Assembly: GCF_002966125.1 (NCBI RefSeq)
Contig: NZ_CP027062.1
Coordinates: 620,001-684,000 of the forward strand
Source: Pukyongia salina
GTDB lineage: Bacteria > Bacteroidota > Bacteroidia > Flavobacteriales > Flavobacteriaceae
DNA length: 64,000 bases
Reading direction: 5' to 3'
Part shown: piece after piece, positions 6,789-29,494 of the stretch
How the letters are laid out: every line of letters starts with the position of its first letter
How positions within the stretch are numbered: position 1 is the first letter of the stretch
Translations under genes and position numbers: made by a program
The notes under the pieces: generated by a model
The model's database searches: none
What the model was told of the DNA's origin: nothing
Seen by the model: only the letters and a program-made list of their open reading frames with translations

Positions 6789-6811
6789 TCTCTACAACCA
6801 CCCAACTGTGT

Positions 6812-13694: not shown

Positions 13695-14978
13695 TAGGGT
13701 TTTTACAAGATCGTGGCAGGCGTTAATCGTCATGTCCAGATCCTTATAAGTTAGCGCATCGTTTAAGAACCAACTTTCAAATGCACTTGGGGGTAAATAT
13801 ATCCCGCGGTTTAACATCCCATGGAAGAATTTTTTGAACGTTTCGTTATTACCCTTCGCGGAAGACTCAAAATCTATAACTTCTTCCTTAGTAAAGTGCA
13901 CCGAGATCATAGATCCAACCCTGTTTATCACATAGGGCAGTCCACTCTCGTTTAAAGCCAGGTCCAACCCATTATGTAGATAAGCCGTCTTTTCGGCAAG
14001 AGATTGGTAAATTTCAGGAGATCGATCAAGAGCTTTTAACATGGCGAGACCAGCGGCCATCGCCAATGGATTACCGCTCAAGGTTCCTGCCTGATAAACA
14101 GGACCCAAGGGGGCTAGAAAATCCATGATCTCATTTCTGGCGGCGAATGCTCCAACCGGAAGCCCTCCGCCAATAACCTTCCCAAAGGTTACTATATCGG
14201 CTTTTACACCATATAATTCCTGGGCTCCACCAGCAGCTAACCGAAATCCGGTCATCACCTCATCGAAAACCAGAAGGATATCATTTTCGTTGCATAAATC
14301 GCGTAACCCCTCCAAAAATCCGTCGGCCGGAGGAATACATCCCATATTTCCTGCTACAGGTTCCAGGATAATACAGGCTATTTCTCCTCTGTTCTCCAAA
14401 ATGAGCTCCCTTACCCTGTTAAGATCATTATATGGAGCGAGCAAAGTATCTCTGGCAGTACCAGCAGTGACTCCTGGACTGTTTGGGACACCAAAGGTAA
14501 CAGCACCGCTACCTGCTTCAATGAGAAACGAATCACTGTGACCGTGATAACACCCTGCAAATTTTATGATCTTGTCCTTACCCGTGTATCCACGTGCCAG
14601 GCGTACTGCACTCATACATGCTTCGGTACCACTGTTTACAAAACGGATCTTATCTATGCCCGGAACCATCGAAACAGCCAAAGAGGCGATCTCAGTTTCA
14701 ATCTGCGTGGGCATACCAAAAGAAGTACCTTTCTCGGCTTTCGATATAAGTGCATCGAGAACCGGCTGGTACGCATGTCCAAGGATCAATGGGCCCCAGG
14801 AGGCTATATAATCTACGAGTTTATTTCCATCTACATCGTACAAATAGGCCCCTTTGGCGTGTTCAATAAATACAGGGTCACCGCCAACAGCCTTAAAGGC
14901 CCGTACAGGTGAGTTTACACCTCCCGGAATATATTGTTGTGCCTCTTTAAATAAGGCACTACTTCGTTTATAGATCAT
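13692..14978 (-). CDS. hemL: Glutamate-1-semialdehyde 2,1-aminomutase
   Basis: 428 aa, the usual length. A PLP enzyme that converts glutamate-1-semialdehyde to 5-aminolevulinate, the second step of C5 tetrapyrrole synthesis. Diagnostic stretches: [13 protein letters not shown] at the N-terminus, [40 protein letters not shown], and the PLP lysine in [16 protein letters not shown]. It follows the glucosaminidase-LysM gene with a 6-nt gap on the same strand, so it is the last gene of a three-gene unit. Confidence 0.97.
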
Positions 14979-14984
14979 GAAAAA

Positions 14985-15815
14985 TTATTGATTCTTTACA
15001 GGATGCAAATATAATACCTGTCCTATAGAAATAGTATTAGTTTCAAGGCCATTATACTCTTTTAACGTTTCAACCGTAATATTGAATCGTCTGGCAATAC
15101 TATAGAGGGTATCACCTTTTAAAACCGTGTAGGTATTGATCTTTGTGTTATCCGGGTTGATAGGATTTGCACCGGCACCTAATACCATTTCGTCATAAGC
15201 CGCCAGATTATAGCGTTCTATGATAGAAATGAGCTTGTCTGGGTATTTAGGATCGGTAGCATACCCCGCCTTCTTCAAACCTCTGGCCCAGGATTTATAA
15301 TCATCTTTCCTGTATTTAAACAGATCCTTATATCTGCTTCGTTGCGTAAGGAACAGCGAGTGATCCCTAAATGAATATTTAGGATCTTTATATTTTCTGA
15401 AGCACTCACCCTTTTCGTCATCGTCGTGATACACGCGTTCGCCTGTCCATTCGGTGTGACATTTAATTCCGAAATGATTATTTGCTTTTCGCGTTAATTC
15501 TCCTCTTCCGGCACCACTCTCAAGTATCCCCTGTGCCAGGGTGATGCTGGCCGGTATACCGTATTGAAGCATCTCCTCCCTTGCAATGCCATTGTAGTTT
15601 TCAATGTAATTGGCAACAACCTCGGCGTATGAAGCATCAGGCGGAAGCTCTTTCACCACCGTTTTAGGTACTGTTGTAGTAGTTTCGGGTTGTTTTTCGA
15701 TCACTATCTTTTCGGTGCGGTCTCTTTTCTTACTTTCCACAATGCGCTTCTTAGATTTACAACTTGTGGTTAGAAATCCAACTGCAACGATAACTATGAG
15801 GATTCTAAATAGCAT
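14985..15815 (-). CDS. Glucosaminidase/LysM lipoprotein (peptidoglycan hydrolase)
   Basis: 276 aa. Lipoprotein signal with TTSC, Cys at 19, then a basic stretch KSKKRIVESKKR. Residues of about 70-215 are a mannosyl-glycoprotein endo-beta-N-acetylglucosaminidase/FlgJ-type domain: ASITLAQGILESGAGRGELT carries the catalytic Glu, then NNHFGIKCH, FRKYKDPKYSFRDHSLFL and KKAGYATDPKYPDKLI. A LysM peptidoglycan-binding domain closes the protein (YTVLKGDTLYSIARRFNI to QVLYLHPV). Expected role is glycan strand cleavage in the periplasm. It directly abuts the upstream ACC-deaminase-like gene with no gap. Confidence 0.92.
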   Translation of the reverse strand: MLFRILIVIVAVGFLTTSCKSKKRIVESKKRDRTEKIVIEKQPETTTTVPKTVVKELPPDASYAEVVANYIENYNGIAREEMLQYGIPASITLAQGILESGAGRGELTRKANNHFGIKCHTEWTGERVYHDDDEKGECFRKYKDPKYSFRDHSLFLTQRSRYKDLFKYRKDDYKSWARGLKKAGYATDPKYPDKLISIIERYNLAAYDEMVLGAGANPINPDNTKINTYTVLKGDTLYSIARRFNITVETLKEYNGLETNTISIGQVLYLHPVKNQ

Positions 15816-16757
15816 TTATATTTCGATTTGAGGTAGGTTCTTTGATTTCAATCGGAGGTTCATTCCATTAATTCCCTGTAGTCCCCCGGTATGAATCGCT
15901 AAAATACGGCTATTTTTTCTGAAATATCCGGCTTTCATTAGATTCATGATCCCATACATCATCTTAGCTGTGTATACCGGATCCAGTTGAATATTTGTTA
16001 ATTCTTTAAACTTGTTAATGAAACGAACTAATTCTGAATCTATTTTAGCATAGCCGCCAAAATTGTAGCGGTCTGTGAGCTGATATTTGGAATTACTACT
16101 GAATTTATCCAGTATTTCCTTCTGAAAAGTTCCATTAAGTACAGAAAACCCGATCCCCTCCTGGTGAGGCTGCAAGGAATTCAATATCCCTGCGAAGGTT
16201 CCTCCGGTTCCCACCGCCACCGCCACATGATCGAATTCCACATCTGTATCACTAAGTATTTCAGAACAACCCTTTACTGCTAATTGTGAAGTACCACCTT
16301 CCGGAATGATATAATAATCGTGCAGATCGCGTATATATCGTTTTAAAACTTCTCCCTGATCCTTATCCTTATAATCACTTCTACTCATGAATATTAAGCG
16401 CATACCACAGCGGGAGGCGTACTGCAGCGTAGGGTTGCTCTCTATATATGGTTCCAATTCTTCTCCTCGTATCACCCCTACCGTAGGAATACTAAAAAGC
16501 TTTCCCGCAGAGGCTGTGGCAGCAATATGATTAGAAAACGCACCACCAAAAGTAAGGATCGCCCGTTTATGCGTGGCTCTCATATCCTCAAAAAGGTATT
16601 TTAATTTTCTGAACTTATTTCCCGAAACTTCAGAGTGTATTTGATCTTCCCGTTTCAAAAAAAGTGAATATCCCGAAATTGAGAATGGTTCCAGGAGGAT
16701 CTCCTCATTCATCGATCCGGTTTCTTCGAAGAAAAATTCAAGATTATTATGGGCCAA
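15816..16757 (-). CDS. 1-Aminocyclopropane-1-carboxylate deaminase / D-cysteine desulfhydrase family PLP enzyme
   Basis: 313 aa, fold type II PLP enzyme. The PLP lysine lies in SGNKFRKLKYLFEDM and the substrate region in ILTFGGAFSNHIAATASAG; the phosphate-binding glycine loop is VAVGTGGTFAGI. The family includes ACC deaminase and D-cysteine desulfhydrase; which reaction this one performs cannot be told from the sequence. An internal Met at residue 16 is an alternative start. First gene of a unit with the glucosaminidase and hemL. Confidence 0.88.
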   Translation of the reverse strand: MAHNNLEFFFEETGSMNEEILLEPFSISGYSLFLKREDQIHSEVSGNKFRKLKYLFEDMRATHKRAILTFGGAFSNHIAATASAGKLFSIPTVGVIRGEELEPYIESNPTLQYASRCGMRLIFMSRSDYKDKDQGEVLKRYIRDLHDYYIIPEGGTSQLAVKGCSEILSDTDVEFDHVAVAVGTGGTFAGILNSLQPHQEGIGFSVLNGTFQKEILDKFSSNSKYQLTDRYNFGGYAKIDSELVRFINKFKELTNIQLDPVYTAKMMYGIMNLMKAGYFRKNSRILAIHTGGLQGINGMNLRLKSKNLPQIEI

Positions 16758-16950
16758 AATTCTTCAATTTTATTTGATGCGAAATTATTGAAGATAGTTC
16801 AATCTTTAACACTTTATGACACAGATAATTAGAGAATAAGTAGAAAAACGGACTTCAGCTTAAAAAAATTTCACTAAAACGACGTAAATATCCCAATTCC
16901 TCATTTCTAGATTTTAACATTTATAAATTACAAAAGTTAAATTATAGTGT

Positions 16951-16999
16951 ATTTCATCGATTTATTTTGTCTTTTGTCGATTTTTATGTATATAATTGT
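16951..16999 (+). promoter_or_regulatory. Shared 49-bp promoter element, copy 1
   Basis: TCGATT occurs twice as a direct repeat (16957-16962 and 16977-16982), exactly 20 bp apart, and TATAATTG at 16991-16998 resembles the -7 box. The same 49-bp layout, with identical internal distances, is found at 19748-19796. The ATG at 17025 lies 26 nt beyond. The downstream TCGATT covers the region between -33 and -7, as expected for activator binding. Confidence 0.68.
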
Positions 17000-17024
17000 A
17001 GGAAAATTCCTCAATAACCAGCTT

Positions 17025-19541
17025 ATGACGATAACACTACTACACCGAAAATTCCTACTAATTCTTTTCTTTGTCTTCAGCACTTCCCTGCTGCATGCCC
17101 AAGTAGGAATCAATACAACTGCCCCCGGTACCGGGGCCATGTTGGATGTAACAAGTAATAACAAAGGTATATTACTTCCTCGTGTCGCCTTATCGGCCAC
17201 GAATAGTAGCAGCCCAATCACACCGGCTCCTTCTACAAGCCTTTTGGTCTATAACACCGCAACTGCGGGATCTGGAGCAACTGCTGTTACGCCCGGATTC
17301 TACTTCTGGAGTGGAACCGCCTGGATTCCTATCATTGGGAACGACTGGAAACAAAGCGGTAATGCCGGAACTAGCCCCGCAGCAAATTTTGTGGGAACTA
17401 CAGATAATTCGGATCTAAGTTTTAGAACCAATAACACCGAGAAATTCCGAATCACCTCTAATGGTCGTCTAAGATCATATACAGATGGCACAAGCGGTTC
17501 TCCTGCGTTCTCCTGGGACAGTGATACTGATACAGGATTCTACAGGTCTAATCCGGACGAATTCTCTATAGTTACAAATGGTAATTCCCAATTAACTATT
17601 GACGCCAGTGGTAATTTACGTGCTAATAGCGCAGGTACCGCGGCTAATCCGCTATTTGGATGGTCCGGTGATCCCGATAAAGGGTTCTACAGCCCGGGTG
17701 CCGACCTTCTCGGCCTGGTAACAAATGGAACCGAAAGATTTCGAATTCCCAATACTAACCAGGTACACGCCATGTCGAATGGTATAAATACAGCTCCTTT
17801 TTACAGCTGGAATACGGATACAGACACCGGACTTTGGATCAGTTCGGCCGACCGACTTAACCTAACAGCGGGAGGTCTTGAATTTTTAGAGCTACGGGAA
17901 GATGCAAACGATCAACTGGTAATTAATGATACCAACGCAGATATCAACACCAGAATTGCTACTACCAATAATAGCAATACACTTTTCGTGGATGGAGCAA
18001 ATGATAATGTTGGACTAGGAACAGGTGCACCTAACACAAGTGCACAATTAGAGATGAGCGATACAGATCGAGGTATTCTTATTAACAGGGTAGCCTTAAC
18101 TTCGAGAGCAGTAGCGAGTCCGGTAACATCGCCCGCCACAGGCTTGCTGGTTTACAATACTGCAAATGCCAGTAGTGGAGATACCGAAGTTTTACCTGGT
18201 TTCTACTATTGGAGTGGCAGCGAATGGATCGCCATGGGGGGAACTGGTGGTCGTGACTGGTCATTGGAAGGAAATGCAGGCACTAGTCCTGTACAAAATT
18301 TCATCGGTACTACAGATGCTACAGATTTTGTACTACGCACCAACGACACCGAAAGAATGCGCTTTCTTGATATTGGAACCGCAGGTATGGGATCTATGCC
18401 ATACACCAACGTGGTTTTACGCGTTAACGACGCATCCCATCCTTTCGGCATCGTTTCGGAAACGTCCAGTAACGGAGCCTCTGTATGGGGAGCCGATTCG
18501 GGATCGGGGATAGGAATACGAGGAGAAAACACGGGAACTGGTATTGGTCTTTACGGTTATGCCGCCAATTCCCACGGTGCTTATACCTATACCACCTATA
18601 CAGGTAGTTCCTTCCTTATAGGAGGGATCCAGGCCTGGGGTGGTGGTGCAAACGGTGCCAATGGGGTGCTGGCCGTTGCAGATCAGCTATCATCCTCAAG
18701 ATCCAATATGGGATTAAGAGCTGTATCTGGTAGTACTACTTCCATTTCTACAAACCAGATTCTCAACATAGGTGTTAACTCTAACGCCACAGATCTCGCC
18801 ATCTATGCGATGACGGAAGGCCCTATTACCTCCTATAGTAGTATAGAGGCAGCTCGCTATCAGACCAATTATACAGGAAATGCTCTCACGGCAGATGCAA
18901 GGGACCCAAGAGCGCAACTTGCCGGTTATACTAATTCCAGTCTTGTAGGAGGTGGTAATATGTACTACGGTGGATATTTCTATAGTGGAGGGTCCAGTTC
19001 CAACTCGTCTTACGCCTATGCAGGTGCCCGATATAACAACACCAATTACAAGATCATTGGTAATGGTGCAGTTTCCACAATTGTTCAGGACACAAACGGT
19101 GACAAAAAAGTGATGTTCGCTCCGGAAGCTCCGGAAGTTCTGTTCGAAGACTATGGCACAGGACAACTTGTAAACGGAACAGCGAATATTTCTATCGATC
19201 CGATCTTTACAAATAACATCGTTGTAGACCAGGATCATCCATTAAAGGTGTTCATTCAGCTTGAAGGCGACTGCAACGGCGTGTACGTGACAAATAAATC
19301 TGCTAGCAGTTTCACTGTAAAGGAGCTTCAGAATGGGACATCGAATGTAACTTTCTCTTATCATATAGTTGCAAATAGGAAGAATGACACAGGATCTACG
19401 GAGAACAGCTCTAACTACAGCGATCTAAGATTCCCGGATGCACCGGATGAAATTGGCCCAGAAACATTGGATGCCAGAGAATTACAAAAGTATAAGCCGG
19501 AGCAAAACACTTTACAAAATAAACTAACGTCTAAAAACTAA
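17025..19541 (+). CDS. Large exported modular surface protein, two VGI-type N-terminal modules
   Basis: 838 aa. The ATG at 17025 was chosen because it gives a signal peptide ending LLHAQ and lies 26 nt after the promoter element; an upstream in-frame start at 16947 would precede that promoter. The mature protein starts VGINTTAPGTGAMLDV and continues KGILLPRVAL...LVYNTATA...GFYFWSGTAW. A second copy of this module is near residues 325-410 (VGLGTGAPNTSAQLEM, RGILINRVAL, LLVYNTANA, FYYWSGSEW). Between them are repeats of the type GNAGTSP...GTTDN(S/A)....TN.TE(R/K)(F/M)R. It ends without a T9SS sorting domain. The module recurs in four further genes downstream. Probably cell-surface or adhesive; function unknown. 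Confidence 0.75.
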   Translation: MTITLLHRKFLLILFFVFSTSLLHAQVGINTTAPGTGAMLDVTSNNKGILLPRVALSATNSSSPITPAPSTSLLVYNTATAGSGATAVTPGFYFWSGTAWIPIIGNDWKQSGNAGTSPAANFVGTTDNSDLSFRTNNTEKFRITSNGRLRSYTDGTSGSPAFSWDSDTDTGFYRSNPDEFSIVTNGNSQLTIDASGNLRANSAGTAANPLFGWSGDPDKGFYSPGADLLGLVTNGTERFRIPNTNQVHAMSNGINTAPFYSWNTDTDTGLWISSADRLNLTAGGLEFLELREDANDQLVINDTNADINTRIATTNNSNTLFVDGANDNVGLGTGAPNTSAQLEMSDTDRGILINRVALTSRAVASPVTSPATGLLVYNTANASSGDTEVLPGFYYWSGSEWIAMGGTGGRDWSLEGNAGTSPVQNFIGTTDATDFVLRTNDTERMRFLDIGTAGMGSMPYTNVVLRVNDASHPFGIVSETSSNGASVWGADSGSGIGIRGENTGTGIGLYGYAANSHGAYTYTTYTGSSFLIGGIQAWGGGANGANGVLAVADQLSSSRSNMGLRAVSGSTTSISTNQILNIGVNSNATDLAIYAMTEGPITSYSSIEAARYQTNYTGNALTADARDPRAQLAGYTNSSLVGGGNMYYGGYFYSGGSSSNSSYAYAGARYNNTNYKIIGNGAVSTIVQDTNGDKKVMFAPEAPEVLFEDYGTGQLVNGTANISIDPIFTNNIVVDQDHPLKVFIQLEGDCNGVYVTNKSASSFTVKELQNGTSNVTFSYHIVANRKNDTGSTENSSNYSDLRFPDAPDEIGPETLDARELQKYKPEQNTLQNKLTSKN

Positions 19542-19588
19542 ATGCCATTATACATTAACTAATAACAAACCAAAACTAGTAAGTAAAC

Positions 19589-19627
19589 GGCACCCGTTTT
19601 AAAGGATAATTTACCTTAGCGGGTGCC
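19589..19627. repeat. Inverted repeat between surface-protein units
   Basis: GGCACCCG (19589-19596) and CGGGTGCC (19620-19627) are perfect inverted repeats around 23 nt that contain a smaller AAGG/CCTT pair. It lies 47 nt after the stop codon of the 838-aa protein. No T-run follows on the plus strand, so termination there is uncertain. Confidence 0.5.
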
Positions 19628-19747
19628 AAAATTAAGTTCAGAAAAATTATAGATACAGCCAATCATTGACATGACCGAAAATATGCTACTTTACCTATTT
19701 CGCATCTAATATGTAGCATTTTTCGTACATTTTGTGATATTTTGTGC

Positions 19748-19796
19748 ATTTCATCGATTATTTTATGTTTTAATCGATTATGTTGCGTATAATTGT
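19748..19796 (+). promoter_or_regulatory. Shared 49-bp promoter element, copy 2
   Basis: TCGATT at 19754-19759 and 19774-19779 (20-bp spacing), then TATAATTG at 19788-19795. First 12 bases and last 9 bases are identical to copy 1 at 16951, while the spacers differ, which points to conserved function rather than recent duplication. The ATG at 19825 is 28 nt beyond. Confidence 0.68.
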
Positions 19797-19824
19797 GATG
19801 CCCAAAATGTTTAATGTCATTGAT

Positions 19825-20637
19825 ATGAAGCAATTTAACCTACGAAATTACGCCCTCGCCCTTTTTTATGCAGTGGGTTTTTATTCTTACACAGTAGCCC
19901 AGGTTGGGATCAATACCACGTCTCCCAACGGGATTCTCGAAGTAGCTAATCCTACAGGTGCAACACATGGAATAGTTCTTCCACGAGTTGCTCTTACGGC
20001 AACCAACGTTGCAGGACCTGTTTTAAATCCACAGGGAGGTGCCCTGGCAGTTGGTACAGTAGTTTATAATACTACGACAACCACCACAGGATCCAACGAC
20101 GTTTATCCCGGAATATATGTTTGGACCGGGACCGAATGGTTTAACAAATTCACTAAGAAACACCAGGAGTATTATACACAAACCTCCTTCTTTCAACCAG
20201 ACTCTAATGCCGGTTGGCAGAACGTCCCCGGATTAACTTCTCAAACCTTTACCGCAAACTACACAGGTGCATATAAAATTGAAGTGAGTATGAACTATGG
20301 AAGTGGTTACATTAACGATGTTTCCGCAGGCTGTGATGTTGCCTATCAACAGGGGCAATTCAGGTTTAACTTTAACGGTACCAATTACTATGTGACCGCA
20401 AAGGCTCAAGCTTCCCAAGAGCCTTCAGGAACCAGATATTACGCAATATGGGAGCAATATTCTTTTATAGAGTATGTAAGCCTTGTAGCCGGGACTAACT
20501 ATACCTTCACCCTTTCCTTCGATCAGGCAAATTCGCCAGGTTTCGTTAACAATGGAAACTCGGGATCAGGTCTTGGGTATATGGGAATTCCCGATCATGT
20601 TCCCTGCTCTGTTGAATTTACATATATAGGTGAATAA
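19825..20637 (+). CDS. Exported surface protein, VGI-type module plus beta-sandwich domain (paralogue A)
   Basis: 270 aa from the ATG at 19825; earlier in-frame ATGs at 19798 and 19807 lie too close to the predicted promoter. Signal peptide ends TVAQ. The N-terminal module reads VGINTTSPNGILEVANP, GIVLPRVALTATNVAGPVLN, VVYNTT and GIYVWTGTEWF. The C-terminal domain of about 130 residues is shared with the next two genes: FTANYTGAYKIEVSMNYG, a GQFRFNFNGTNY strand, LVAGTNYTFTLSFDQ and a closing VPCSVEFTYIGE. This looks like an all-beta sandwich, perhaps C1q/TNF-like, but that is a guess from pattern. No T9SS signal. First gene of a four-gene unit. Confidence 0.75.
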   Translation: MKQFNLRNYALALFYAVGFYSYTVAQVGINTTSPNGILEVANPTGATHGIVLPRVALTATNVAGPVLNPQGGALAVGTVVYNTTTTTTGSNDVYPGIYVWTGTEWFNKFTKKHQEYYTQTSFFQPDSNAGWQNVPGLTSQTFTANYTGAYKIEVSMNYGSGYINDVSAGCDVAYQQGQFRFNFNGTNYYVTAKAQASQEPSGTRYYAIWEQYSFIEYVSLVAGTNYTFTLSFDQANSPGFVNNGNSGSGLGYMGIPDHVPCSVEFTYIGE

Positions 20638-20651
20638 AAAAACAACTAACG

Positions 20652-21461
20652 ATGAAAAATAATACGCTATTACATATTTGTGTTCTGTTTTTTCTGGCTG
20701 GTATAACCACTTTTGCCCAGGTTGGGATTGGCACCACTTCACCAAAAGGAATTTTGGATATAGACAGTAGTACTTACGGTGTAGTTTATCCAAGTGTGGC
20801 ATTAACCGCTACCAATGTGGCAGCACCGGTGGTAAATCCTTTAGGTGGAGCACTGGCGGTTGGAACAACAGTTTTTAACACTAATACAACAAATACAGGT
20901 TCAAACGATGTTGAACCGGGAATTTACTCCTGGGATGGCTCCCAGTGGATAATTCACTTCTTTAAAAGGCAACAGGAAATGTATCCGCAAACTTCTGTTC
21001 TAAGAAGTTCGGCTGCTTTGGGATTCCAGGACGTACCTGGAGTGGGTGCTGCCGATCTAAGAACATTTACAGCAAATTATTCCGGTCTATATCGAATTGA
21101 AGTAAAACTTACCTATGGCGGTGGAAATATGAATACCACAACCGATGTTGAAACCACCATGACCGAAGGCGACTTTAGGTTTACATTCGATGGTACAGCT
21201 AATATCATAAAAGCTAAATCTTTCTCAACATATAACGCTCATATTAGCGGAGGAAGACAATTTGCAGACTCGTGGGTCCAAACCACTAAGACATTTTATG
21301 TAAATCTGGTCCAGAATCAGTCTTACATTTTTTCTTTGGAATTTGATCAGTATACGGATGCAAAATTAATGAACGGAGGAAATTTAGTAATTACAGACGG
21401 AAGGGGATACGTAGGAAGTGAAATCCCATGTTACATCGAATTCACCTACCTGGGTGACTAA
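20652..21461 (+). CDS. Exported surface protein, VGI-type module plus beta-sandwich domain (paralogue B)
   Basis: 269 aa, signal peptide ending TTFAQ. N-terminal module: VGIGTTSPKGILDIDSS, VYPSVALTATNVAAPVVN, TVFNTN, GIYSWDGSQW. C-terminal domain: FTANYSGLYRIEVKLTYGGG, EGDFRFTFDG, NQSYIFSLEFDQ, IPCYIEFTYLGD. Same architecture and almost the same length as paralogue A, 14 nt upstream. The strong conservation of the ends and divergence of the middle suggest duplicated genes under diversifying or relaxed selection. Confidence 0.75.
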   Translation: MKNNTLLHICVLFFLAGITTFAQVGIGTTSPKGILDIDSSTYGVVYPSVALTATNVAAPVVNPLGGALAVGTTVFNTNTTNTGSNDVEPGIYSWDGSQWIIHFFKRQQEMYPQTSVLRSSAALGFQDVPGVGAADLRTFTANYSGLYRIEVKLTYGGGNMNTTTDVETTMTEGDFRFTFDGTANIIKAKSFSTYNAHISGGRQFADSWVQTTKTFYVNLVQNQSYIFSLEFDQYTDAKLMNGGNLVITDGRGYVGSEIPCYIEFTYLGD

Positions 21462-21496
21462 AAAACTTTGATATATACTATTAAACAATAGCTATT

Positions 21497-22321
21497 ATGA
21501 AATTAACGATCAAATCTATATTCGCCCTCGCTACGCTATTTCTTGCAGTTACAGCTCTACAGGCTCAAATCGGTATTGGTACCGAGGCTCCTCAGGGAAT
21601 GCTGGATCTGTCTAATAGCAATTCGGCCGGGTTTGTATTTCCAAAAGTAGCCCTCACAGCCGATAATGTTGCGGCCCCTGTAACTAATCCTCAGGGAGGC
21701 GCACTGGAAGTAGGAACCGTGGTCTTTAATACCGCTACTACTACAACCGGTGCTAATGATGTTTCTCCCGGTATTTATGCCTGGAATGGTTCCAGGTGGA
21801 ACCCTCAGTATTTAAGACAAGACTCTGCTTTATTCGAGCAATCTCCATTAGACCTGAGAACGGTTACCGGAGATACTTCGTATAATTCTGGTTCTTCAGA
21901 CTGGGTAGATGTACCTGGTTTAGGCGCCGGATCTACTTTTACAGCCAAATATACAGGAACATATAAGGTAAAAGCCAGTTTTAATTTTGGTGGCGGACAA
22001 GTGGTAACACCTTCTGCTGGTAATATTATGATGGCCACCATGGAAGGGCTTTTTAGATTCACCTTCGACGGAAGCAGCAATCTTATATACACACACTCCT
22101 ACTCACTATATAACAACCCTACATATCAGGAACAATTTATACATGACTCTAATTTTATCCAATACGTGAATTTAACAGCCGGACAAACCTATAATTTCCG
22201 GCTTGAAGTCGATGTTTTCGTTGCAACACACTACGTTAACGGAGGAAACTCAGGTACCGGTAGAGGTCATGTGGGAATTAGTATCCCGTGTGCTGTAGAA
22301 TTTACTTTTATCGATGAATAA
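21497..22321 (+). CDS. Exported surface protein, VGI-type module plus beta-sandwich domain (paralogue C)
   Basis: 274 aa, signal peptide ending ALQAQ. N-terminal module: IGIGTEAPQGMLDLSNS, VFPKVALTADNVAAPVTN, VVFNTATTTTG, GIYAWNGSRW. C-terminal domain: FTAKYTGTYKVKASFNFGGG, EGLFRFTFDGSSN, AGQTYNFRLEVD, IPCAVEFTFIDE. Third member in tandem, 35 nt after paralogue B and 37 nt before the T9SS cargo gene. Confidence 0.75.
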   Translation: MKLTIKSIFALATLFLAVTALQAQIGIGTEAPQGMLDLSNSNSAGFVFPKVALTADNVAAPVTNPQGGALEVGTVVFNTATTTTGANDVSPGIYAWNGSRWNPQYLRQDSALFEQSPLDLRTVTGDTSYNSGSSDWVDVPGLGAGSTFTAKYTGTYKVKASFNFGGGQVVTPSAGNIMMATMEGLFRFTFDGSSNLIYTHSYSLYNNPTYQEQFIHDSNFIQYVNLTAGQTYNFRLEVDVFVATHYVNGGNSGTGRGHVGISIPCAVEFTFIDE

Positions 22322-22358
22322 GAACTTTACTTTAAACTTTATAAATACACCCCGTATT

Positions 22359-25300
22359 ATGAACAGATACTTACTTTTCGCTTTACTGATCAATTTCAGT
22401 CTGGTAACTGCCCAAACACCATGTTCTGGTGGTATGGCAGGAAGCTATCCTTGTGACGGCCTAACACTTCAATCATATTTATCACTTTCTCAGTTAGGTG
22501 CGTCTTCAGGAAACGATTCCTGGGGATGGACAGATCCTTTAGACCAAAAGGAATACGCCATCGTTGGACTAAATAACAGTACTTTCTTTATAGACATCAC
22601 CGATCCGGTGAATCCAAGAAGACTAGGAAGGCTGATGACACAAACAAGTAATAGCGCCTGGAGAGATGTTAAGGTTTACAACAACCACGCATTTATTGTA
22701 AGTGAAGCATCTGGACATGGTATGCAGATCTTTGATCTAACAACATTAAGAGGACTTTCAACCAACCCCAACAGGATTTTCTCAAATACCGCTCATTACA
22801 ATGGTTTTGGAGATGCCCATAATATTATTATTAACGAGGACACTGGGATTGCCTACGTGTTAGGTGCTAATATCTATAGTGGAGGCCCTCATTTTATCGA
22901 TATCACCACCCCTGCTAGTCCGGTGAGTTTAGGTGGTTATTCTGCAAGAGGATACACCCACGATGCGCAAGTTGTAATCTATGATGGTCCTGATCAGGAT
23001 TACCAGGGTCGTGAGATTTTCATTGGAGCTAATGAAGACGAGATAGTATTATTGGACGTTACCAATAAGGCCAGCGTTACCGTGATTTCAACTATTACAT
23101 ATCCTAATTTTAGCTATACACACCAGGGATGGTTTACCGAGGATAAAAGATTTTTTATTCTTGGAGACGAAACCGATGAACAGGGTTACGGTTTCAATAC
23201 GAAAACTATCGTTTTAAATCTTGATGATCTGGACAACCCTAATATAGCTTTCAATTACTACGGGCCTACTGCCGCGATCGACCATAACGGCTACGTGAGA
23301 GGGAATAGATTCTACCAGGCCAGTTATGGAGCCGGTTTGAGAGTTATTAAACTTGGCGACCTGGACCAGGGAGTCTCTGCAATGACCGAAGTAGATTATT
23401 TCGATACATGGCCTTCCAGTAATTCGGCTACGTTCAACGGTGCATGGAATGTATACCCATATTTCCCCAGTGGAAACCTGATCATTAGTAATTACAATAC
23501 CGGATTCTTTGTAGTGAAAGATCCGAACTTTGACGAAACAGACCCAACCGTTGTTTGCCAGAATATTACGGCAACCTTGAACAAAGCTACGGGAACCGTA
23601 ACTATTAACGCAAATGATGTTGATAATGGTTCAACAGATAATATGGGTATAGTAAGTATGTCTCTTGATGGACAAACCACCTTTACTTGTGCAGATGTTG
23701 GTAGTGTGTTTAACGTTACCCTAACTGTGGAAGATGACTATGGAAACAGATCGTCTTGTGTAGCCCAGGTAACTGTGGCTGCTGAAACTACCGAGTTTAG
23801 CGGCGGGTCATGGTCTAACGGAGTTCCTGATATTGGTAGTAACGCGAAGATCGCCAGTGATTATGATACGGGTGCAGGCGCAAATACCAGTTTCGATGCA
23901 TGTTCATGCGAGATCGATGCCGGACGCACACTTACTATTCAGGCGAACGATTACATAAATATCGAAAAAGACATTACAGTTAACGGGAACCTGATAGTAA
24001 AACATCAGGGAAGCGTAGTGCAAAGTGATGCTACCGCTTCAGTAATAAAGAATGGAAGTATAGACGTTGAATTAACCACACCTCCACTGAAGAATCGTGA
24101 TTTTATGATCATGGGAAGCCCCATGACCACCGAAACACGCACAGGTGTATTTAACGGGGCGTACAATGTACAGGCTTATACTCCGGCTAATTTTATTCCT
24201 CATTCGGGCGTTCCGGCTGGAGGAACCAATTTTGCCGATGATAACTTCGACGACTGGAACCCGGCTAGTGGGACCATTACCCCTGGAGAAGGCTTCCTGG
24301 TTTATCCGCAAGCAGCCTATAACGATCCGGCCTATAACGGACCACCACCTGTCTCAACCCTGCAATTCGATATGAATTACACCCTGGGAACCCTAAACAA
24401 CGGTACAGTAACCAGATCCATTATCTTTAATGGCCTGGGGTCAAACCCGGACGGAACACCGAACATGCTCGCAAATCCATACGCATCTCCTATCGATGCC
24501 AGTGCATTTGTAAATGATAACGCCCTGGTGAACGAAGTATATTTCTGGGAACACCTAACAGCGCCCAGTGCAGCCATCCCAGGAGCGAACACAATTAACG
24601 TTTCCATGGACGATATCTCTATGTACAACGGTACAATGGGGGTACCCGCAGCAAACGATCCCGGTACATCCACCACACCTAATGGAGTGATCTCTACCGG
24701 ACAAGGATTCTCGATCAAAGCTTTTGGAGCCGGAACAGTATCTTTTACTAATAGTATGAGACTCACCTCCGGTAATACCACCCTGCGTAATCCCGAAGGA
24801 CTAGAGAAAATGATACTGAAAGTGGAAAACACTCAATTTGACGTTCGCAGTTATGCCGGTATTGCATTTAGACCTGATGGTAGTGCACAATTGGATGCCA
24901 ATTTCGATTCTAACAGACTTGCCACCATAATTTCCCTTTACTCACATCTTGAGGACGGTACCGAGCAACTGGGTATTCAAACCCGTGAAACCTTCGATGC
25001 CGAAATTAAGATCCCAATGGGCTTTAGCTCACAGGTGGAAAGTGAAACTAATTACGTGATATCAATTTCCTCTTTGGAAGGTAGTGTCCTTCCGGGAGTA
25101 ACGGTATACCTGATCGACCACAGAGAGAATGTAATAACCGAACTAAGTGCCAACGACTATGAGTTTACCAGTGGACAAGGTACCTTCGACGGTAGATTTA
25201 CACTTCAATTCGAACAGGACGGATCCTTAGGTTCTGTAGCTAACAAACTCAATAGTGTTGTGGTTTATCCTAACCCGGCTGATAACATTATTAATATCAG

Positions 25301-25484
25301 CTCACCGGCTACATACCTAAAAGCCATCGAAGTCTACGATGTTCGTGGAAGAAGACTTTCTGAAGAAATCGATGACAAACAAAATTCGGTATCACTTAGT
25401 GTGACTAATCTCGAAACAGGAATCTACTTTGTGAAAGTGGATACCGAAGTCGGTTCGGTGACCAAAAAGATCATAAAAAAATAA
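22359..25484 (+). CDS. Choice-of-anchor-B / HYR-type secreted protein with T9SS sorting domain
   Basis: 1041 aa from the ATG at 22359, giving signal peptide MNRYLLFALLINFSLVTAQ; an ATG at 22314 overlaps the preceding stop. Residues of about 20-395 resemble the choice-of-anchor B / LVIVD-type propeller (YAIVGLNNSTFFIDITDPVN, HGMQIFDLTTLRG, YTHDAQVVIYDGPDQDYQGR). About 400-490 is a hyalin/HYR-like beta domain (CQNITATLNKATGTVTI, VDNGSTDNMGIVSMSLDG). The large middle region is a presumed beta-rich stalk. The C-terminal 75 residues are a T9SS type A sorting domain (VYPNPADNIINI, VYDVRGRRL, GIYFVKV, KKIIKK). It should be exported through the outer membrane by T9SS. Last gene of the unit, followed by a strong terminator. 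Confidence 0.85.
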   Translation: MNRYLLFALLINFSLVTAQTPCSGGMAGSYPCDGLTLQSYLSLSQLGASSGNDSWGWTDPLDQKEYAIVGLNNSTFFIDITDPVNPRRLGRLMTQTSNSAWRDVKVYNNHAFIVSEASGHGMQIFDLTTLRGLSTNPNRIFSNTAHYNGFGDAHNIIINEDTGIAYVLGANIYSGGPHFIDITTPASPVSLGGYSARGYTHDAQVVIYDGPDQDYQGREIFIGANEDEIVLLDVTNKASVTVISTITYPNFSYTHQGWFTEDKRFFILGDETDEQGYGFNTKTIVLNLDDLDNPNIAFNYYGPTAAIDHNGYVRGNRFYQASYGAGLRVIKLGDLDQGVSAMTEVDYFDTWPSSNSATFNGAWNVYPYFPSGNLIISNYNTGFFVVKDPNFDETDPTVVCQNITATLNKATGTVTINANDVDNGSTDNMGIVSMSLDGQTTFTCADVGSVFNVTLTVEDDYGNRSSCVAQVTVAAETTEFSGGSWSNGVPDIGSNAKIASDYDTGAGANTSFDACSCEIDAGRTLTIQANDYINIEKDITVNGNLIVKHQGSVVQSDATASVIKNGSIDVELTTPPLKNRDFMIMGSPMTTETRTGVFNGAYNVQAYTPANFIPHSGVPAGGTNFADDNFDDWNPASGTITPGEGFLVYPQAAYNDPAYNGPPPVSTLQFDMNYTLGTLNNGTVTRSIIFNGLGSNPDGTPNMLANPYASPIDASAFVNDNALVNEVYFWEHLTAPSAAIPGANTINVSMDDISMYNGTMGVPAANDPGTSTTPNGVISTGQGFSIKAFGAGTVSFTNSMRLTSGNTTLRNPEGLEKMILKVENTQFDVRSYAGIAFRPDGSAQLDANFDSNRLATIISLYSHLEDGTEQLGIQTRETFDAEIKIPMGFSSQVESETNYVISISSLEGSVLPGVTVYLIDHRENVITELSANDYEFTSGQGTFDGRFTLQFEQDGSLGSVANKLNSVVVYPNPADNIINISSPATYLKAIEVYDVRGRRLSEEIDDKQNSVSLSVTNLETGIYFVKVDTEVGSVTKKIIKK

Positions 25485-25502
25485 CCAGATCTCAATCTCG
25501 AT

Positions 25503-25538
25503 AAAAAAGCCTGAACTGATGTTCAGGCTTTTTTTTTA
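25503..25538 (+). terminator. Intrinsic terminator
   Basis: AAAAAGCCTGAAC and GTTCAGGCTTTTT form a long stem with a TGAT loop followed by a T-run. It ends the surface-protein operon. Confidence 0.9.
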
Positions 25539-25685
25539 CGCGTACGTTTTTTACTGCCTTTTTACTTATGTACTTACAAATCAACGGATTATTTATACAT
25601 ATACTCGAAAAAAAACATGAATCCACGGGAATAATTCTTCTATTATTAAATCATTTTATACATTCATAATTCATAAATGTGTTTT

Positions 25686-26428
25686 ATGAAAACAATTAAC
25701 TCCCCCGACCCCCAAAATTGTTTTCGATTTTCTTACTGCTCATATTTACTATTGCCGGATACGGCCAGGTTGGTATTGGAACAACAACACCTAACAGTAA
25801 CGCATTGTTAGATATAGATGCTTCTATCAATGTGGGAGGTGTACTTTTACCACGAGTAGCACTTACTTCTTCTGGTGGTGCTGCACCACTTTCATCTCAT
25901 GTTGCAGGGATGACCGTATACAATACGGCAACAACTGCCGATATTTTTCCAGGAATCTACACAAACAATGGATCCAGGTGGATGCGTGTTGAAGATTCAT
26001 CTCCAGCGGCTCATTCTGTTTCCCTCGCAACCGATATCCAAATTTCGAGTGCGACCTTTGCAAATGTACCCAGCATGCCAACTCTTACATTTACTGCCAG
26101 AAAAAGCTCGGTTTTGGTTATGCTAACTGCATCCGGTTTCGGTTATACCAACTCTATGGCCGCAGTTCAATTAAGAGTTCGAAATGTTACTTCGGGAACT
26201 ACGATAGGCGGAACCAATAATAAGATCCAAAGCTATGATGATGTTACAGGTACCGTAACTACCTGGTCTGCATCATTCTCAAAATTGGTGACGGGTTTAA
26301 CCATAGGGACGACATACACCTTCAGCGTTCAAGGGCTGGTAGGAGGTATCCTGGGAACACCGAACGCAGCTATTTTTCCGGTTACAAATCCCGATAACCA
26401 GCATATGACATTAACCGTTATACAATAA
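25686..26428 (+). pseudogene. Fifth VGI-module exported protein, frameshifted in its signal peptide at a poly-C tract
   Basis: The reading frame from 25718 to 26428 encodes GYGQVGIGTTTPNSNALLDI, GGVLLPRVALTSS, TVYNTATTAD and GIYTNNGSRW, the same module as the proteins at 17025-22321, followed by a different beta-rich domain. The only start in that frame near the signal peptide is a TTG at 25718, giving MFSIFLLLIFTIAGYGQ without a charged n-region. An ATG at 25686 lies 32 nt upstream, one base out of frame; between them are two C5 runs and an A4 run. One extra base there would give the lysine-bearing start MKTINSP joined to the hydrophobic core. It may be a sequencing error, a phase-variable switch, or a TTG-initiated gene. 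No copy of the shared 49-bp promoter was found upstream. Confidence 0.6.
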
Positions 26429-26755
26429 TTAAACGTATTTTAAAAACCTCCAAAAAGACCTTGATTTCAGATAATTGAGGTCTTTTTCATTCGCATATGC
26501 TTCTCTTTCAAAGCTAATATTCCTATAAGCAAGCTTTGTCGATCGGTATTGGATCAATCTATATACATACTCCATGAGATACCACAAATAAAATGGAATT
26601 ATTAGAAATTCAACCTGCTGTCTTAAATGTATCTTTTCGTGATTAATGAAGACTTTATCTTGCTTAAGATCTTTTCGCTTCAGAATTATAAATGGCCATA
26701 GACTTATTCCCAGAAAATTTTTACGAAGTAAGAAACGATTCACCAATACGATCAT
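26429..26755 (-). CDS. Small HExxH-motif membrane protein, unknown
   Basis: 108 aa from the ATG at 26755; the open frame reaches 26878 but that extension is antisense to the DUF5522 gene and is not favoured. The sequence has NHEKIHLRQQVEFL, an HExxH zinc-peptidase-like motif, followed by a hydrophobic, aromatic-rich helix (IIPFYLWYLMEYVYRLIQ) and FEREAYANEKD, where the Glu could be a third zinc ligand. This pattern is like tiny Bacteroidota proteins related to the M48/M56 type membrane peptidases, but the catalytic function is unproven. The stop codon directly abuts that of the plus-strand VGI gene. Confidence 0.62.
   Translation of the reverse strand: MIVLVNRFLLRKNFLGISLWPFIILKRKDLKQDKVFINHEKIHLRQQVEFLIIPFYLWYLMEYVYRLIQYRSTKLAYRNISFEREAYANEKDLNYLKSRSFWRFLKYV
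26452..26487. terminator. Hairpin terminator lying inside the end of the HExxH gene
   Basis: AAAAAGACCT (26452-26461) and AGGTCTTTTT (26478-26487) form a perfect 10-bp stem with a 16-nt loop and T-run. It would terminate plus-strand transcription from the VGI gene, although it lies within the last codons of the convergent gene. Confidence 0.6.
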
Positions 26756-26788
26756 GAATACAAGATAGGAAATTGGTATTTTTGTGTA

Positions 26789-26962
26789 ATGACTTTTTTT
26801 AACAAAAAGAACGAGCTCGAAGAAGGGGATTATTACATAACCCCGGAAGGCTATAAGTGTTTTACAGAGCAATATCACTTAAAAAGAGGCTATTGCTGTG
26901 AAAGCGGTTGCAGACATTGCCCGTATGGCTTCAACACCAAAACGAATACCCAAAACAAATGA
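26789..26962 (+). CDS. DUF5522 small cysteine-rich protein
   Basis: A 57-aa protein reading MTFFNKKNELEEGDYYITPE, then GYKCFTEQYHLKRGYCCESG and CRHCPYGFNTKTNTQNK. The GYCC.SGCRHCPYGF cluster of four cysteines and a histidine is the hallmark of DUF5522, a small presumed metal-binding family of unknown role. Its stop overlaps the hutU start (ATGA at 26959-26962), indicating translational coupling. Confidence 0.88.
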   Translation: MTFFNKKNELEEGDYYITPEGYKCFTEQYHLKRGYCCESGCRHCPYGFNTKTNTQNK

Positions 26963-28941
26963 CATTTCAAGAAGAAATACTAGAAGGAATTCCAGATCAA
27001 CTACCAGACCCTAAACCTTACGACCCCGACGTAAATCACGCCCCTAAACGAAAGGAGATCTTGACCGATTATGAAAAAGAACTGGCACTTCGGAATGCCT
27101 TGCGGTATTTCCCGAGTAAACTCCATAGCTCCCTCCTACCCGAATTTGCTGAAGAACTAGAAGCTTACGGCCGCATCTATATGTATCGTTACAGACCGAT
27201 ACACAAGATATTCGCCAGAGGTATTTCCCAATATCCCGGTAAGTCTGAACAGGCCAAAGCGATCATGTTAATGATCCAAAATAATCTGGATCATGCGGTA
27301 GCACAACATCCGCATGAATTGATCACCTATGGAGGAAACGGTGCGGTATTTCAGAATTGGGCCCAATACAGACTGGTCATGAAGTACCTGGCTGAAATGA
27401 ACGACGAGCAAACACTAGTCATGTATTCGGGGCATCCATTGGGATTGTTCCCCTCCCATAAAGAAGCTCCAAGGGTGGTTGTTACCAACGGAATGATGAT
27501 TCCCAATTATTCGAGTCAGGACGACTGGGAAAAATTCAACGCTTTAGGGGTTACGCAGTACGGACAGATGACGGCGGGAAGCTATATGTATATTGGCCCA
27601 CAGGGAATTGTTCACGGAACGACAATAACAGTTTTGAACGGATTCAGAAAAATAAATAAAGACCCTAAGGGCGGTCTATTTGTAACTTCCGGTTTGGGAG
27701 GAATGAGTGGTGCACAGCCTAAAGCCGGCAATATTGCAGGTTGTGTTACTGTCTGCGCCGAAGTAAATAAAAAAGCCACTCAAACAAGACATTCGCAGGG
27801 ATGGGTGGATGAGATCATTTCAAACCTAAAACAACTGGCAGATCGGGTTAGGAAAGCCTGTGCCAATGGAGAAACTGTATCCATAGCCTATGATGGAAAT
27901 GTAGTGGATGTATGGGAATTTTTTGCTGAAGAGAATATTAAGATCGATCTGGGAAGCGATCAAACCTCTCTTCACAATCCATGGGCAGGTGGTTATTATC
28001 CTGTGGGAATGACCTATGAAGAGGCCAATGACATGATGGCTAGTGATCCTGAAGGATTTAAAGAAAAGGTAAGGCAAAGCCTGAGACGCCATGCTGCAGC
28101 AATTAACAAACACACCGAAAGAGGCACTTATTTTTTCGATTATGGGAATGCATTTCTTTTGGAGGCTTCCAGGGCAGGTGCCGATGTTTGCACCGATGAT
28201 CCGGTTCGGGAATTTAAATATCCAAGTTATGTTCAGGATATTATGGGCCCGATGTGTTTCGATTATGGATTTGGGCCATTCCGCTGGGTATGTGCTTCGG
28301 GTGATCCCGATGATCTAGCGAAAACCGATGAGATCGCAACAGCTGTCCTCGAGCAACTGAAAGTAAACGCCCCTGAAGAAATCCAGCAGCAAATGGCAGA
28401 TAATATAAAATGGATAAAAGGGGCGCAGGAGAACAAACTGGTGGTTGGATCGCAGGCGCGTATTCTCTATGCAGATTCGGACGGTCGCATACAAATTGCT
28501 TCGGCATTTAATAAGGCCATTTCCGAAGGGAAAATAGGTCCAGTTATACTAGGTCGCGACCATCATGATGTTTCTGGCACCGACTCTCCTTACAGAGAAA
28601 CGTCCAATATTTATGACGGCAGTCGTTTTACTGCCGATATGGCCATCCATAATGTAATTGGAGATAGCTTTCGCGGAGCTACCTGGGTAAGTATTCACAA
28701 CGGAGGAGGTGTTGGTTGGGGAGAAGTGATTAATGGAGGTTTCGGTATGGTTCTTGATGGAAGTAAGGAAGCCCAACGTCGTCTGGAAGGCATGCTTTTC
28801 TGGGACGTGAATAATGGGATAGCCCGAAGAAGTTGGGCGAGAAATGAAGAAGCCGTTTTCGCCATCAAACGAGCAATGAGAGACAATCCAAACCTAAAAG
28901 TAACGCTTCCGAATTTCGTCGATAACAATTTGTTTAAGTAA
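26959..28941 (+). CDS. hutU: Urocanate hydratase
   Basis: 660 aa from the ATG at 26959, which overlaps the DUF5522 stop by 4 nt; an in-frame ATG at 26908 would lie inside DUF5522. The enzyme adds water to urocanate in histidine degradation, using a tightly bound NAD+. Recognisable parts: TYGGNGAVFQNWAQYRL, MYSGHPLGLFPS, NAD-binding GLGGMSGAQPKAGNIAG, GSDQTSLHNPWAGGYYP, and the C-terminal HNGGGVGWGEVINGGFGMVL. It is about 100 residues longer than the enterobacterial type, with the extra length at the N-terminus and in insertions. No hutH, hutI or hutG is present in the window. Confidence 0.95.
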   Translation: MTFQEEILEGIPDQLPDPKPYDPDVNHAPKRKEILTDYEKELALRNALRYFPSKLHSSLLPEFAEELEAYGRIYMYRYRPIHKIFARGISQYPGKSEQAKAIMLMIQNNLDHAVAQHPHELITYGGNGAVFQNWAQYRLVMKYLAEMNDEQTLVMYSGHPLGLFPSHKEAPRVVVTNGMMIPNYSSQDDWEKFNALGVTQYGQMTAGSYMYIGPQGIVHGTTITVLNGFRKINKDPKGGLFVTSGLGGMSGAQPKAGNIAGCVTVCAEVNKKATQTRHSQGWVDEIISNLKQLADRVRKACANGETVSIAYDGNVVDVWEFFAEENIKIDLGSDQTSLHNPWAGGYYPVGMTYEEANDMMASDPEGFKEKVRQSLRRHAAAINKHTERGTYFFDYGNAFLLEASRAGADVCTDDPVREFKYPSYVQDIMGPMCFDYGFGPFRWVCASGDPDDLAKTDEIATAVLEQLKVNAPEEIQQQMADNIKWIKGAQENKLVVGSQARILYADSDGRIQIASAFNKAISEGKIGPVILGRDHHDVSGTDSPYRETSNIYDGSRFTADMAIHNVIGDSFRGATWVSIHNGGGVGWGEVINGGFGMVLDGSKEAQRRLEGMLFWDVNNGIARRSWARNEEAVFAIKRAMRDNPNLKVTLPNFVDNNLFK

Positions 28942-28951
28942 ACCATATGCT

Positions 28952-29494
28952 ATGAAATCACTTAAATTCACAACATTACTTTTAGTACTTTTTGTCTTTA
29001 CTTCCTGTACCACGGTACGGGTTGTGAGCGACTATGACCGTCAGGCCAATTTTAATGAATACAATTCTTTTGCTTTTTATAAGCCCGGGATAGACAAGGC
29101 CGAGATCTCAGACCTTGATAAAAAACGTATTCTTCGGGCCATAAATTCTGAATTAGCGGCGAAAGGCCTTAACAAGTCTGATTCTCCCGATCTTCTGGTT
29201 AGTATATTCACTAAAGAACGGGAACGAATAAACGTTTACAATAATAATTTCGGATGGGGCTGGGGTTGGAATCCCTGGTGGTATGGAGGTTATTACGGAA
29301 ATTCCGTTTCCCGATCCACAGAAGGGTCTCTTTACATAGACCTCATCGATGCTAAAACCAACGAATTGGTTTGGCAAGGTGTAGGAAGTGCACGATTGAT
29401 CACAAGCGGGAATATTGATAAAAAGGAAGCTCGCATTAGAGAGATAGTGCGAGAGATCTTAATGAAATACCCACCTGGAAATTCAATGAATTAA
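28952..29494 (+). CDS. DUF4136 lipoprotein
   Basis: 180 aa. Lipoprotein signal with lipobox FTSC, Cys at 19. The following TTVRVVSDYDRQANFNEYNS and FAFYKPG, and later YIDLIDAKTNELVWQGVGSA, are the typical start and end of DUF4136. The middle has a tryptophan/glycine patch (GWGWGWNPWWYGGYYG). Function unknown; envelope location. Ten nt after hutU, possibly cotranscribed, and followed by an intrinsic terminator. Confidence 0.88.
   Translation: MKSLKFTTLLLVLFVFTSCTTVRVVSDYDRQANFNEYNSFAFYKPGIDKAEISDLDKKRILRAINSELAAKGLNKSDSPDLLVSIFTKERERINVYNNNFGWGWGWNPWWYGGYYGNSVSRSTEGSLYIDLIDAKTNELVWQGVGSARLITSGNIDKKEARIREIVREILMKYPPGNSMN

Follow-up and report, generated by a model that had tools for sequence, protein, structure and literature searches.

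Three co-diverging genes for exported proteins with a predicted jelly roll in Pukyongia salina: candidate subunits of one hetero-oligomer

Do tandem genes for exported proteins that share one N-terminal module encode a free repertoire of surface proteins, or the parts of one assembly? The question is raised by an array at positions 17,025-26,428 (plus strand) of the window analysed here, a 64,000-nucleotide stretch of the Pukyongia salina genome (contig NZ_CP027062.1, positions 620,001 to 684,000; the genome is a single contig of 3.18 Mb), in which a fibre-like protein (P0001) is followed by three proteins here called subunits A, B and C (P0002, P0003 and P0004), a cargo protein of the type IX secretion system (T9SS; P0005) and a further module protein (P0006). 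A preliminary description of this DNA, made from the sequence alone, had proposed a repertoire of surface, matrix or adhesion subunits co-expressed with one T9SS cargo. Comparison of sequences and loci, together with structural models, gives a roughly even chance that A, B and C are subunits of one exported hetero-oligomer, most simply a heterotrimer, which would sit on or near the cell surface.

The genes of subunits A (position 1, 19,825-20,637), B (position 2, 20,652-21,461) and C (position 3, 21,497-22,321), all on the plus strand, have counterparts in the same arrangement in many relatives. A scan of named genomes (the best 80 of 190 matches, in 75 loci), combined with synteny and with separately fetched loci, identified 32 runs of exactly three A/B/C-type genes in 30 loci, or 33 with the window. 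A run was defined by module and jelly-roll matches, lengths of 230-530 residues and gaps below 110 bp; L118-L120 were left out as copies of genomes already included, and some of the loci are near-duplicates (e.g., L123 and L124). The proteins are mostly about 275 residues long, the gaps between open frames range from -66 to +42 bp, and L129 and L132 contain two consecutive triplets each. The hosts are Aequorivita, Altibacter, Thermobacterium, Luteirhabdus, Patiriisocius, Halomarinibacterium, Aureisphaera, Nonlabens and metagenome-assembled genomes (MAGs), some of them labelled Zunongwangia or Ulvibacter. Among the best 80 of the 190 matches, the closest by subunit B are an uncultured Flavobacteriaceae MAG (96% identical) and a Flavobacterium sp. 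MAG (93%), followed by Altibacter lentus (64%) and a Pukyongia MAG (63%). Runs of other lengths under the same definition are a pair in L102 (at a contig end) and single genes in L126 (at a locus end) and L148; L106 and L108 have two genes by the jelly-roll match and L104 one, with three module genes in all at each locus, and L125 and L128 have two extra single genes each, carrying two modules.

Subunits A and C are 49% and 46% identical to B, and in a maximum-likelihood tree of 99 rows each position has a clade of its own (support 100/95, 98/88 and 100/99 for positions 1, 2 and 3), with 2 changes of position label, the minimum, against a mean of 47.2 after shuffling. The idea of a free adhesin repertoire was dropped once this tree showed three ortholog clades: tandem arrays with a T9SS cargo do exist, as had been described, but they hold three orthologous subunits kept as a unit. 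Over the 21 loci that have all the genes, the distances of the three subunits are correlated pair by pair at r = 0.90-0.92, and at a partial r of 0.90-0.91 given the flanking hemL and LysM genes, versus r = 0.25-0.35 between A, B or C and these flanks. In a relative of the same genus (G001), the flanks and P0001 are 63-87% identical to those of the window and the T9SS protein 66%, in contrast to 36-44% for A, B and C. Thus, the three genes are evidently exchanged, and diverge, together.

The heads of such an assembly would be the C-terminal domains. An AlphaFold2 model of subunit A, built from 93 sequences with a mean predicted local distance difference test score (pLDDT) of 90, has at residues 109-269 (20,152-20,634, as delimited by structural alignment) a predicted jelly-roll topology of the type of C1q and tumour necrosis factor (TNF), for which homology to A gives support in B and C. 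The beta-sandwich that the preliminary description saw in all three is thus supported, with its relationship to C1q and TNF unrecognised there. Foldseek matches of the model include the tail fibre of cyanophage A-1(L), TNF, C1QL1 and C1q heads (E = 8e-5 to 4e-4; TM-scores 0.33-0.49 by target length and about 0.3 by query), and viral models, C1q-annotated or tail fibres, are its closest matches in BFVD. Structural alignment gives Z scores of 11.1 for the C-terminal domain of Pgp3, 10.0 each for the BC2L-C lectin and PLTL, 9.7 for BxpB and 9.1 for BclA, with 4-1BBL also among the matches at Z 9 to 11 (aligned lengths 114-132 residues). None of the three subunits matches the Pfam C1q family (PF00386) at E up to 1, and sequence searches of solved structures gave nothing useful. 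Of 93 rows, 86 retain a cysteine close to the C-terminus, and divergence is faster in the jelly roll than in the module (0.51-0.56 versus 0.34-0.40). The position-2 protein of a distant, separately placed triplet family (pLDDT 82, poor in the leader and part of the module) is again predicted to end in a jelly roll (Pgp3 Z 12.2, PLTL 11.8, BC2L-C 11.2, C1q head 8.9).

The module itself, of about 80 residues, is present in six copies in five proteins: P0001, with one copy right behind the leader (17,100-17,333, residues 26-103) and one internal (18,006-18,236, residues 328-404), subunits A, B (20,718-20,957) and C (21,566-21,808), and P0006. All 15 pairwise local alignments of these copies reach 134-282, whereas 300 shuffles of each pair never exceeded 58 (z = 15.5 to 41.2), in agreement with the motifs reported for the five proteins, twice in the first, all of which lie where the preliminary description had placed them. 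The six window proteins have no Pfam or NCBIfam match to the module, and 25 diverse copies reach a best E of only 0.079 against Pfam. With a profile of 25 rows it was found in 89 of the 395 Bacteroidota genomes sampled (E up to 1e-3), as a widespread N-terminal unit; copy numbers in this survey are lower bounds because at most 14 candidates per genome were scored. The six-row profile gives 16 copies for P. salina at E up to 0.01, and the 25-row profile 56 for genome G026 at E up to 0.001. Since so widespread a module has as yet no Pfam model, many uncharacterised proteins gain a common architecture.

All five module proteins of the window begin, as had been noted, with an ordinary hydrophobic leader, here followed by [A/G]-Q-(V/I)G-I (judged by eye, not by a signal-peptide predictor). 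In the loci examined, 377 of 415 distinct module copies lie directly behind a hydrophobic segment near the start of the open frame; their first residue is glutamine in 354, preceded mostly by alanine (270), serine (50) or glycine (36), and among the 38 copies that are not leader-adjacent it is glutamine in just 5. The module is therefore mostly the N-terminal unit of Sec-exported proteins. This glutamine is that of the Bacteroidetes Q-rule, by which signal peptidase I exposes a glutamine that is then cyclised, and which its authors do not regard as a generic sorting signal (PMC5837995). The window proteins have A-Q or G-Q in place of a lipoprotein cysteine at the cleavage site, and a cysteine occurs within positions -3 to +2 of that site in 14 of the 377 N-terminal copies. 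A T9SS domain was found in none of P0001-P0004 and P0006 at E up to 1, consistent with the original statement that such a signal is confined to P0005.

Module proteins of other kinds were met elsewhere. The P. salina genome encodes three long ones in tandem (796, 842 and 780 residues; 2,451,978-2,459,440 of the genome, L231 3,479-10,941), which end in a Peptidase_S74, a second Peptidase_S74 and a sub-threshold C1q domain, respectively. A gene for a module and a jelly roll in a Limnohabitans-labelled MAG (L148, 7,920-8,822) most likely lies on a mis-binned Bacteroidota contig, and a leader-bearing module protein on a contig from a viral collection (L367, 2,860-5,616) is possibly encoded by host DNA.

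Sets of three recur in other families of module genes. Further threes of short module genes are found in L111 (two, back to back), L288, L292, L173, L183, L293, L287, L329 and L295, and eight distinct triplets were counted from the loci of a family that occurs in Kaistella, its relatives and G026, the distant family whose position-2 protein was modelled above. Four of these eight were placed in a tree, where positions 1, 2 and 3 have their own clades (support 97, 97 and 95). The L295 triplet (3,228-8,098; genome G361, of the same taxonomic family as P. salina) is directly followed by a T9SS type B protein with a CHU_C domain, itself a weak module match, and then by a PorP_SprF gene. Run lengths were counted in 52 loci, a non-random and partly hand-picked sample (40 regions around short or medium module genes, and 12 loci mostly picked for clustered matches), in which runs at locus ends were excluded and genes more than 160 bp apart left unjoined. 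Runs of short module genes only comprised 34 single genes, 1 pair, 7 triples and none longer, so that 7 of 8 tandem runs have three members, and runs with mixed or long module genes numbered 10, 3, 3 and 2 for lengths 1 to 4; under a looser gap rule L328 becomes four short genes (gaps 368-731 bp) and L290 a pair (244 bp). A geometric test of the run lengths takes no account of how the sample was chosen and is indicative at most. Across families, a tree of 51 rows has 17 changes of label (minimum 2; mean 24.4 after shuffling), with long branches meeting there, and window-type position 2 is not one clade in it, in contrast to the more careful 99-row tree (98/88). A single origin of all triplets is unsupported: the families separate in this tree, with positions sorting mainly within them, and three therefore either arose repeatedly or was homogenised inside each family. 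An appearance of repeated triplication could also come from gene conversion.

The T9SS protein P0005 (22,314-25,484, plus strand; 1056 residues) consists of a choice-of-anchor B domain (22,419-23,522, residues 36-403; TIGR04312, E = 4.8e-158, 526.2 bits against a cut-off of 100), a sub-threshold HYR match (12.9 bits, cut-off 21.7) and a type A T9SS sorting domain (residues 984-1054; PF18962 Por_Secre_tail, E = 2.2e-15; TIGR04183, E = 1.1e-14). TIGR04312 genes are present in 63 of 120 Flavobacteriaceae genomes, one per genus (100 matches in total). The long forms (open frames of 1,032-1,082 residues, window included) stand directly behind an A/B/C-type triplet in 9 of 9 cases, of which, besides the window, only three are independent because five of the other eight had already been found via the triplet search. 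The short forms are near a module gene in 0 of the 29 examined (of 91, in 12 regions); in the P. salina genome five short choice-of-anchor-B genes lie consecutively (1,380,341-1,388,182, L277), with no module gene in 14 kb. In L174 a frame-split choice-of-anchor-B gene at the locus end, its upstream side beyond the sequence examined, is followed by a module gene. Seen from the triplets, the gene comes directly after 29 of the 33 (five such genes are cut or frame-split); two of the remaining four are the first triplet of a double array, and L144 (Nonlabens) and L127 (an Ulvibacter-labelled MAG) have no T9SS gene in the sequence examined.

The divergence of the choice-of-anchor B domain, of all parts of P0005, tracks the triplet best (partial r = 0.51 with A, B and C, versus 0.17-0.24 for the other parts), and the middle and end of the protein follow the species (r = 0.93 and 0.87). 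An exchange of the whole four-gene operon as a block was considered and is unsupported, as the T9SS gene overall tracks the flanks (r = 0.90). Most simply put, the triplet and the first domain of the T9SS protein are probably exchanged as one cassette, which fits contact between them but might also reflect linkage. Related loci carry other cassettes. In G006 (L104, identified by Pfam, and L105, by eye) and in G018 (L108, likewise by eye), three module genes precede an incomplete protein that starts with DUF1028; in G002 (L099, by Pfam, at a contig end), two visible module genes come before a DUF1028 and MAM protein that is complete, carries a T9SS domain and retains the C-terminal half of P0005 (64% identity over 54%); and in G016 (L106, by Pfam), the protein behind three module genes is of the Sortilin-Vps10 type and has a T9SS domain. 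A MAM domain is present inside the position-2 subunit in L104 and L108, and the long position-2 subunits of L129, L131 and L137 have sub-threshold PA14 matches, of which there is none in that of L127.

A promoter-like element, consisting of TTTNATCG direct repeats 20 bp apart and located 11 bp before TANNNTTG, precedes both P0001 (16,952-16,998, plus strand, 1 mismatch) and subunit A (19,749-19,795, plus strand, no mismatch). The starts of P0001 (ATG at 17,025) and A (ATG at 19,825 or 19,807) are corrected here because the earlier ones in the list of open reading frames overlap this element. Two occurrences in the window compare with a mean of 0.03 in 100 dinucleotide shuffles (up to 3 mismatches). 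Among 242 sequences upstream of module genes, 32 match with the repeat pair, and 25 of these share the 20-bp spacing, with 14 bp separating the second TCG or ACG from the TA. In 14 genomes chosen for having such arrays, 37 sites with up to 2 mismatches were found in 13, versus 2 for a reversed control. The element is retained ahead of the DUF1028 cassette in G006. At up to 3 mismatches the P. salina genome has 7 sites against 4 for the reversed control, so that lone weak sites are uninformative and sites with 0-2 mismatches were used. One of these (2,114,458) lacks the promoter end, and a third that keeps it (2 mismatches) lies elsewhere in the genome before P0007, which has HYR repeats and a type B signal (CHU_C), and P0008 (PorP_SprF), together a SprB-like adhesin operon; a similar gene starts after the element in G002, G004 and Altibacter. 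SprB of Flavobacterium johnsoniae is bound to SprF (PMC9143113). An element common to a SprB-like T9SS type B adhesin operon fits a role of the triplet at the surface or in adhesion.

In both window promoters the direct repeats are about two helical turns apart. Direct repeats with this spacing are of the LytTR type, and by this analogy the spacing suggests a LytTR-type activator. Ten LytTR genes were counted. LytTR genes lie directly beside module genes at 834,102-839,175 of the P. salina genome and before the two triplets of L111; none is beside the operon described here. The former region (L232) encodes, head to tail, a sensor-like protein that reads by eye as a histidine kinase, a response regulator of the LytTR type and a module protein of 751 residues.

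If A, B and C do assemble, their C-terminal jelly rolls would pack as in C1q or TNF, on a stalk or base formed by the shared N-terminal modules. The T9SS type A protein would be made along with them from the operon, its choice-of-anchor-B domain being the likely partner that they bind. A, B, C and this N-terminal domain of P0005 would form an exchangeable head cassette, with specificity for a ligand, and the C-terminal half of P0005 would stay with the species. Under LytTR-type control, P0001 and the SprB-like T9SS type B adhesin operon might be switched on together with the triplet, giving a coordinated set of surface contact proteins that may act in adhesion.

P0001 (17,025-19,541, plus strand; 838 residues), which consists of a module, tail-fibre-like repeats, the second module and a C-terminal region, invites a different explanation, namely that the array is a remnant of phage tail fibres. 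It matches the tail fiber family phrog_28766 (E = 1.1e-12, 48 bits, best stretch 44 residues) and 15 cyanobacterial phage records, all within residues 149-451 and each over 5-23% of the query, and the viral models closest to subunit A in BFVD point the same way. The leaders and the conserved chromosomal neighbours argue otherwise; moreover, none of 50,697 phage records matches P0003 at E up to 0.01, no relative of P0001 emerged when viral contigs were scanned by pattern, and just 6 weak module relatives occur in such contigs. A phage remnant is thus largely contradicted and very improbable, even if the repeats may have a distant common ancestry with tail fibres.

Other explanations start from the exported proteins themselves. 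Three separate homotrimeric proteins, lectin- or adhesin-like and with different ligands, might be co-expressed as a set, as the TNF-like lectins BC2L-C and PLTL among the nearest folds, the frequency of single module genes and the faster divergence of the jelly roll than of the module would allow; this is nevertheless rather unlikely, for it leaves unexplained the threes in several families, the absence of position swaps in the 33 window-type triplets and the joint divergence at r = 0.9 against the species. That A, B and C remain in the periplasm, or on the inner side of the outer membrane, and there serve the T9SS protein as scaffold or chaperone would agree with the missing T9SS domains, the 14 of 377 module copies with a cysteine near the cleavage site and the T9SS gene directly after 29 of 33 triplets, but is improbable given that triplets without a T9SS neighbour exist and that a fold of receptor-binding type, with MAM and PA14-like inserts, suggests outward contacts. 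It is also very improbable that the genes are neutral tandem paralogues with no joint function, large as this exported family is (16 copies in P. salina, 56 in G026): the ordered ortholog clades across many genera, the joint exchange and the conserved promoter element speak against it, and the tree already contradicts it.

The hetero-oligomer of A, B and C has difficulties of its own, and the following observations weigh against it or against its proposed setting. The best-known bacterial relatives of the fold, Pgp3, BC2L-C and BclA, are homotrimers, and most short module genes are solitary (34 single short runs). Positions are not kept in order in the DUF1028-type loci, where genes 2 and 3 of L105 group with the third and first genes of L104 and L108. 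We know of no route to the surface for proteins that have neither a T9SS domain nor a lipoprotein cysteine; therefore, the triplet proteins could be periplasmic. The T9SS protein as a whole (r = 0.90 with the flanking genes over the 21 loci) follows the species, not the triplet, and the extra correlation of its propeller may reflect mere linkage to exchanged genes. Against a strict link to one T9SS cargo, triplets have no T9SS neighbour, in the sequence examined, in L144, L127, the Weeksellaceae-type loci L173, L183, L292 and L288, L287, L111 and G118. As for control, inspection by eye shows no such element ahead of the L111 triplets, which adjoin a LytTR gene, and Aequorivita triplets often have just one of the two repeats.

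The remaining gene of the array, P0006 (25,718-26,428, plus strand), joins the module to a different C-terminal domain. It has a TTG start, with no in-frame ATG within the window; an ATG at 25,686 is out of frame, and in the counterparts of two relatives of the same genus the frame is open from the corresponding ATG. Between 25,686 and 25,720 the ATG and leader are put off frame by the length of a C-run, a difference that would be either phase variation or a sequencing indel. The array is flanked by hemL, LysM and ACC-deaminase genes on one side and hutU on the other (read by eye from the sequence, with no family search), and it occupies this same place in many genera, among loci with flanks available, with varying contents. 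From 13,692 to 29,494 of the window, and in many relatives, conserved neighbours thus enclose module genes that differ between genera, as at an exchange hotspot.

A broader generalisation can be put forward tentatively: that obligate heterotrimers of the C1q kind have evolved repeatedly in Bacteroidota from tandem A-B-C genes, with a base of modules and a head of three jelly rolls, and that A, B, C and the N-terminal domain of the T9SS protein constitute a recognition cassette that can be exchanged at a fixed chromosomal site and shares one promoter switch with SprB-like adhesins. If this is true, the rule of three in separate families predicts mixed trimers, and Bacteroidota would offer a natural bacterial example of C1q-like hetero-assembly; with head cassettes exchanged at one site and a promoter element in common, both the specificity of recognition and its control become testable. 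A literature search confined to papers available without subscription turned up none on the VGIGT module in Bacteroidetes or on choice-of-anchor B and, by title and start of abstract, none on such operons under the topics of T9SS, C1q, LytTR, the Q-rule and gliding; a paper on cryoconite phages mentions C1q seven times (PMC7468147).

The system proposed here resembles several known ones in part. P0005 is a member of the choice-of-anchor B family (TIGR04312), from which it differs as a long form, found only behind triplets in 9 cases. The triplet is likened to SprB-SprF, a type B adhesin with its PorP/SprF partner, in that P0007 and P0008 share its promoter element and that the triplet of L295 directly precedes CHU_C and PorP_SprF proteins; unlike SprB, the window triplet proteins have no T9SS domain, and their partner P0005 is of type A. 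The closest solved folds, the BC2L-C N-terminal domain, PLTL and the C-terminal domain of Chlamydia Pgp3 (Z 10 to 12), have just 5-14% identity in the alignments and do not possess the Bacteroidota module. BclA and BxpB (ExsF) of the Bacillus exosporium have the C1q/TNF-like fold in common with the triplet and are surface trimers with an N-terminal anchoring part and a head, but they differ in their collagen-like stalk, spore surface and homotrimeric state. Complement C1q differs from P0002-P0004 in that the latter are bacterial, have no Pfam C1q match and no visible collagen stem, and are known here from genes and single-chain models. Nevertheless, it is C1q that the triplet recalls both in its jelly-roll heads and in its three paralogous chains, for the A, B and C chains of C1q assemble as one heterotrimer.

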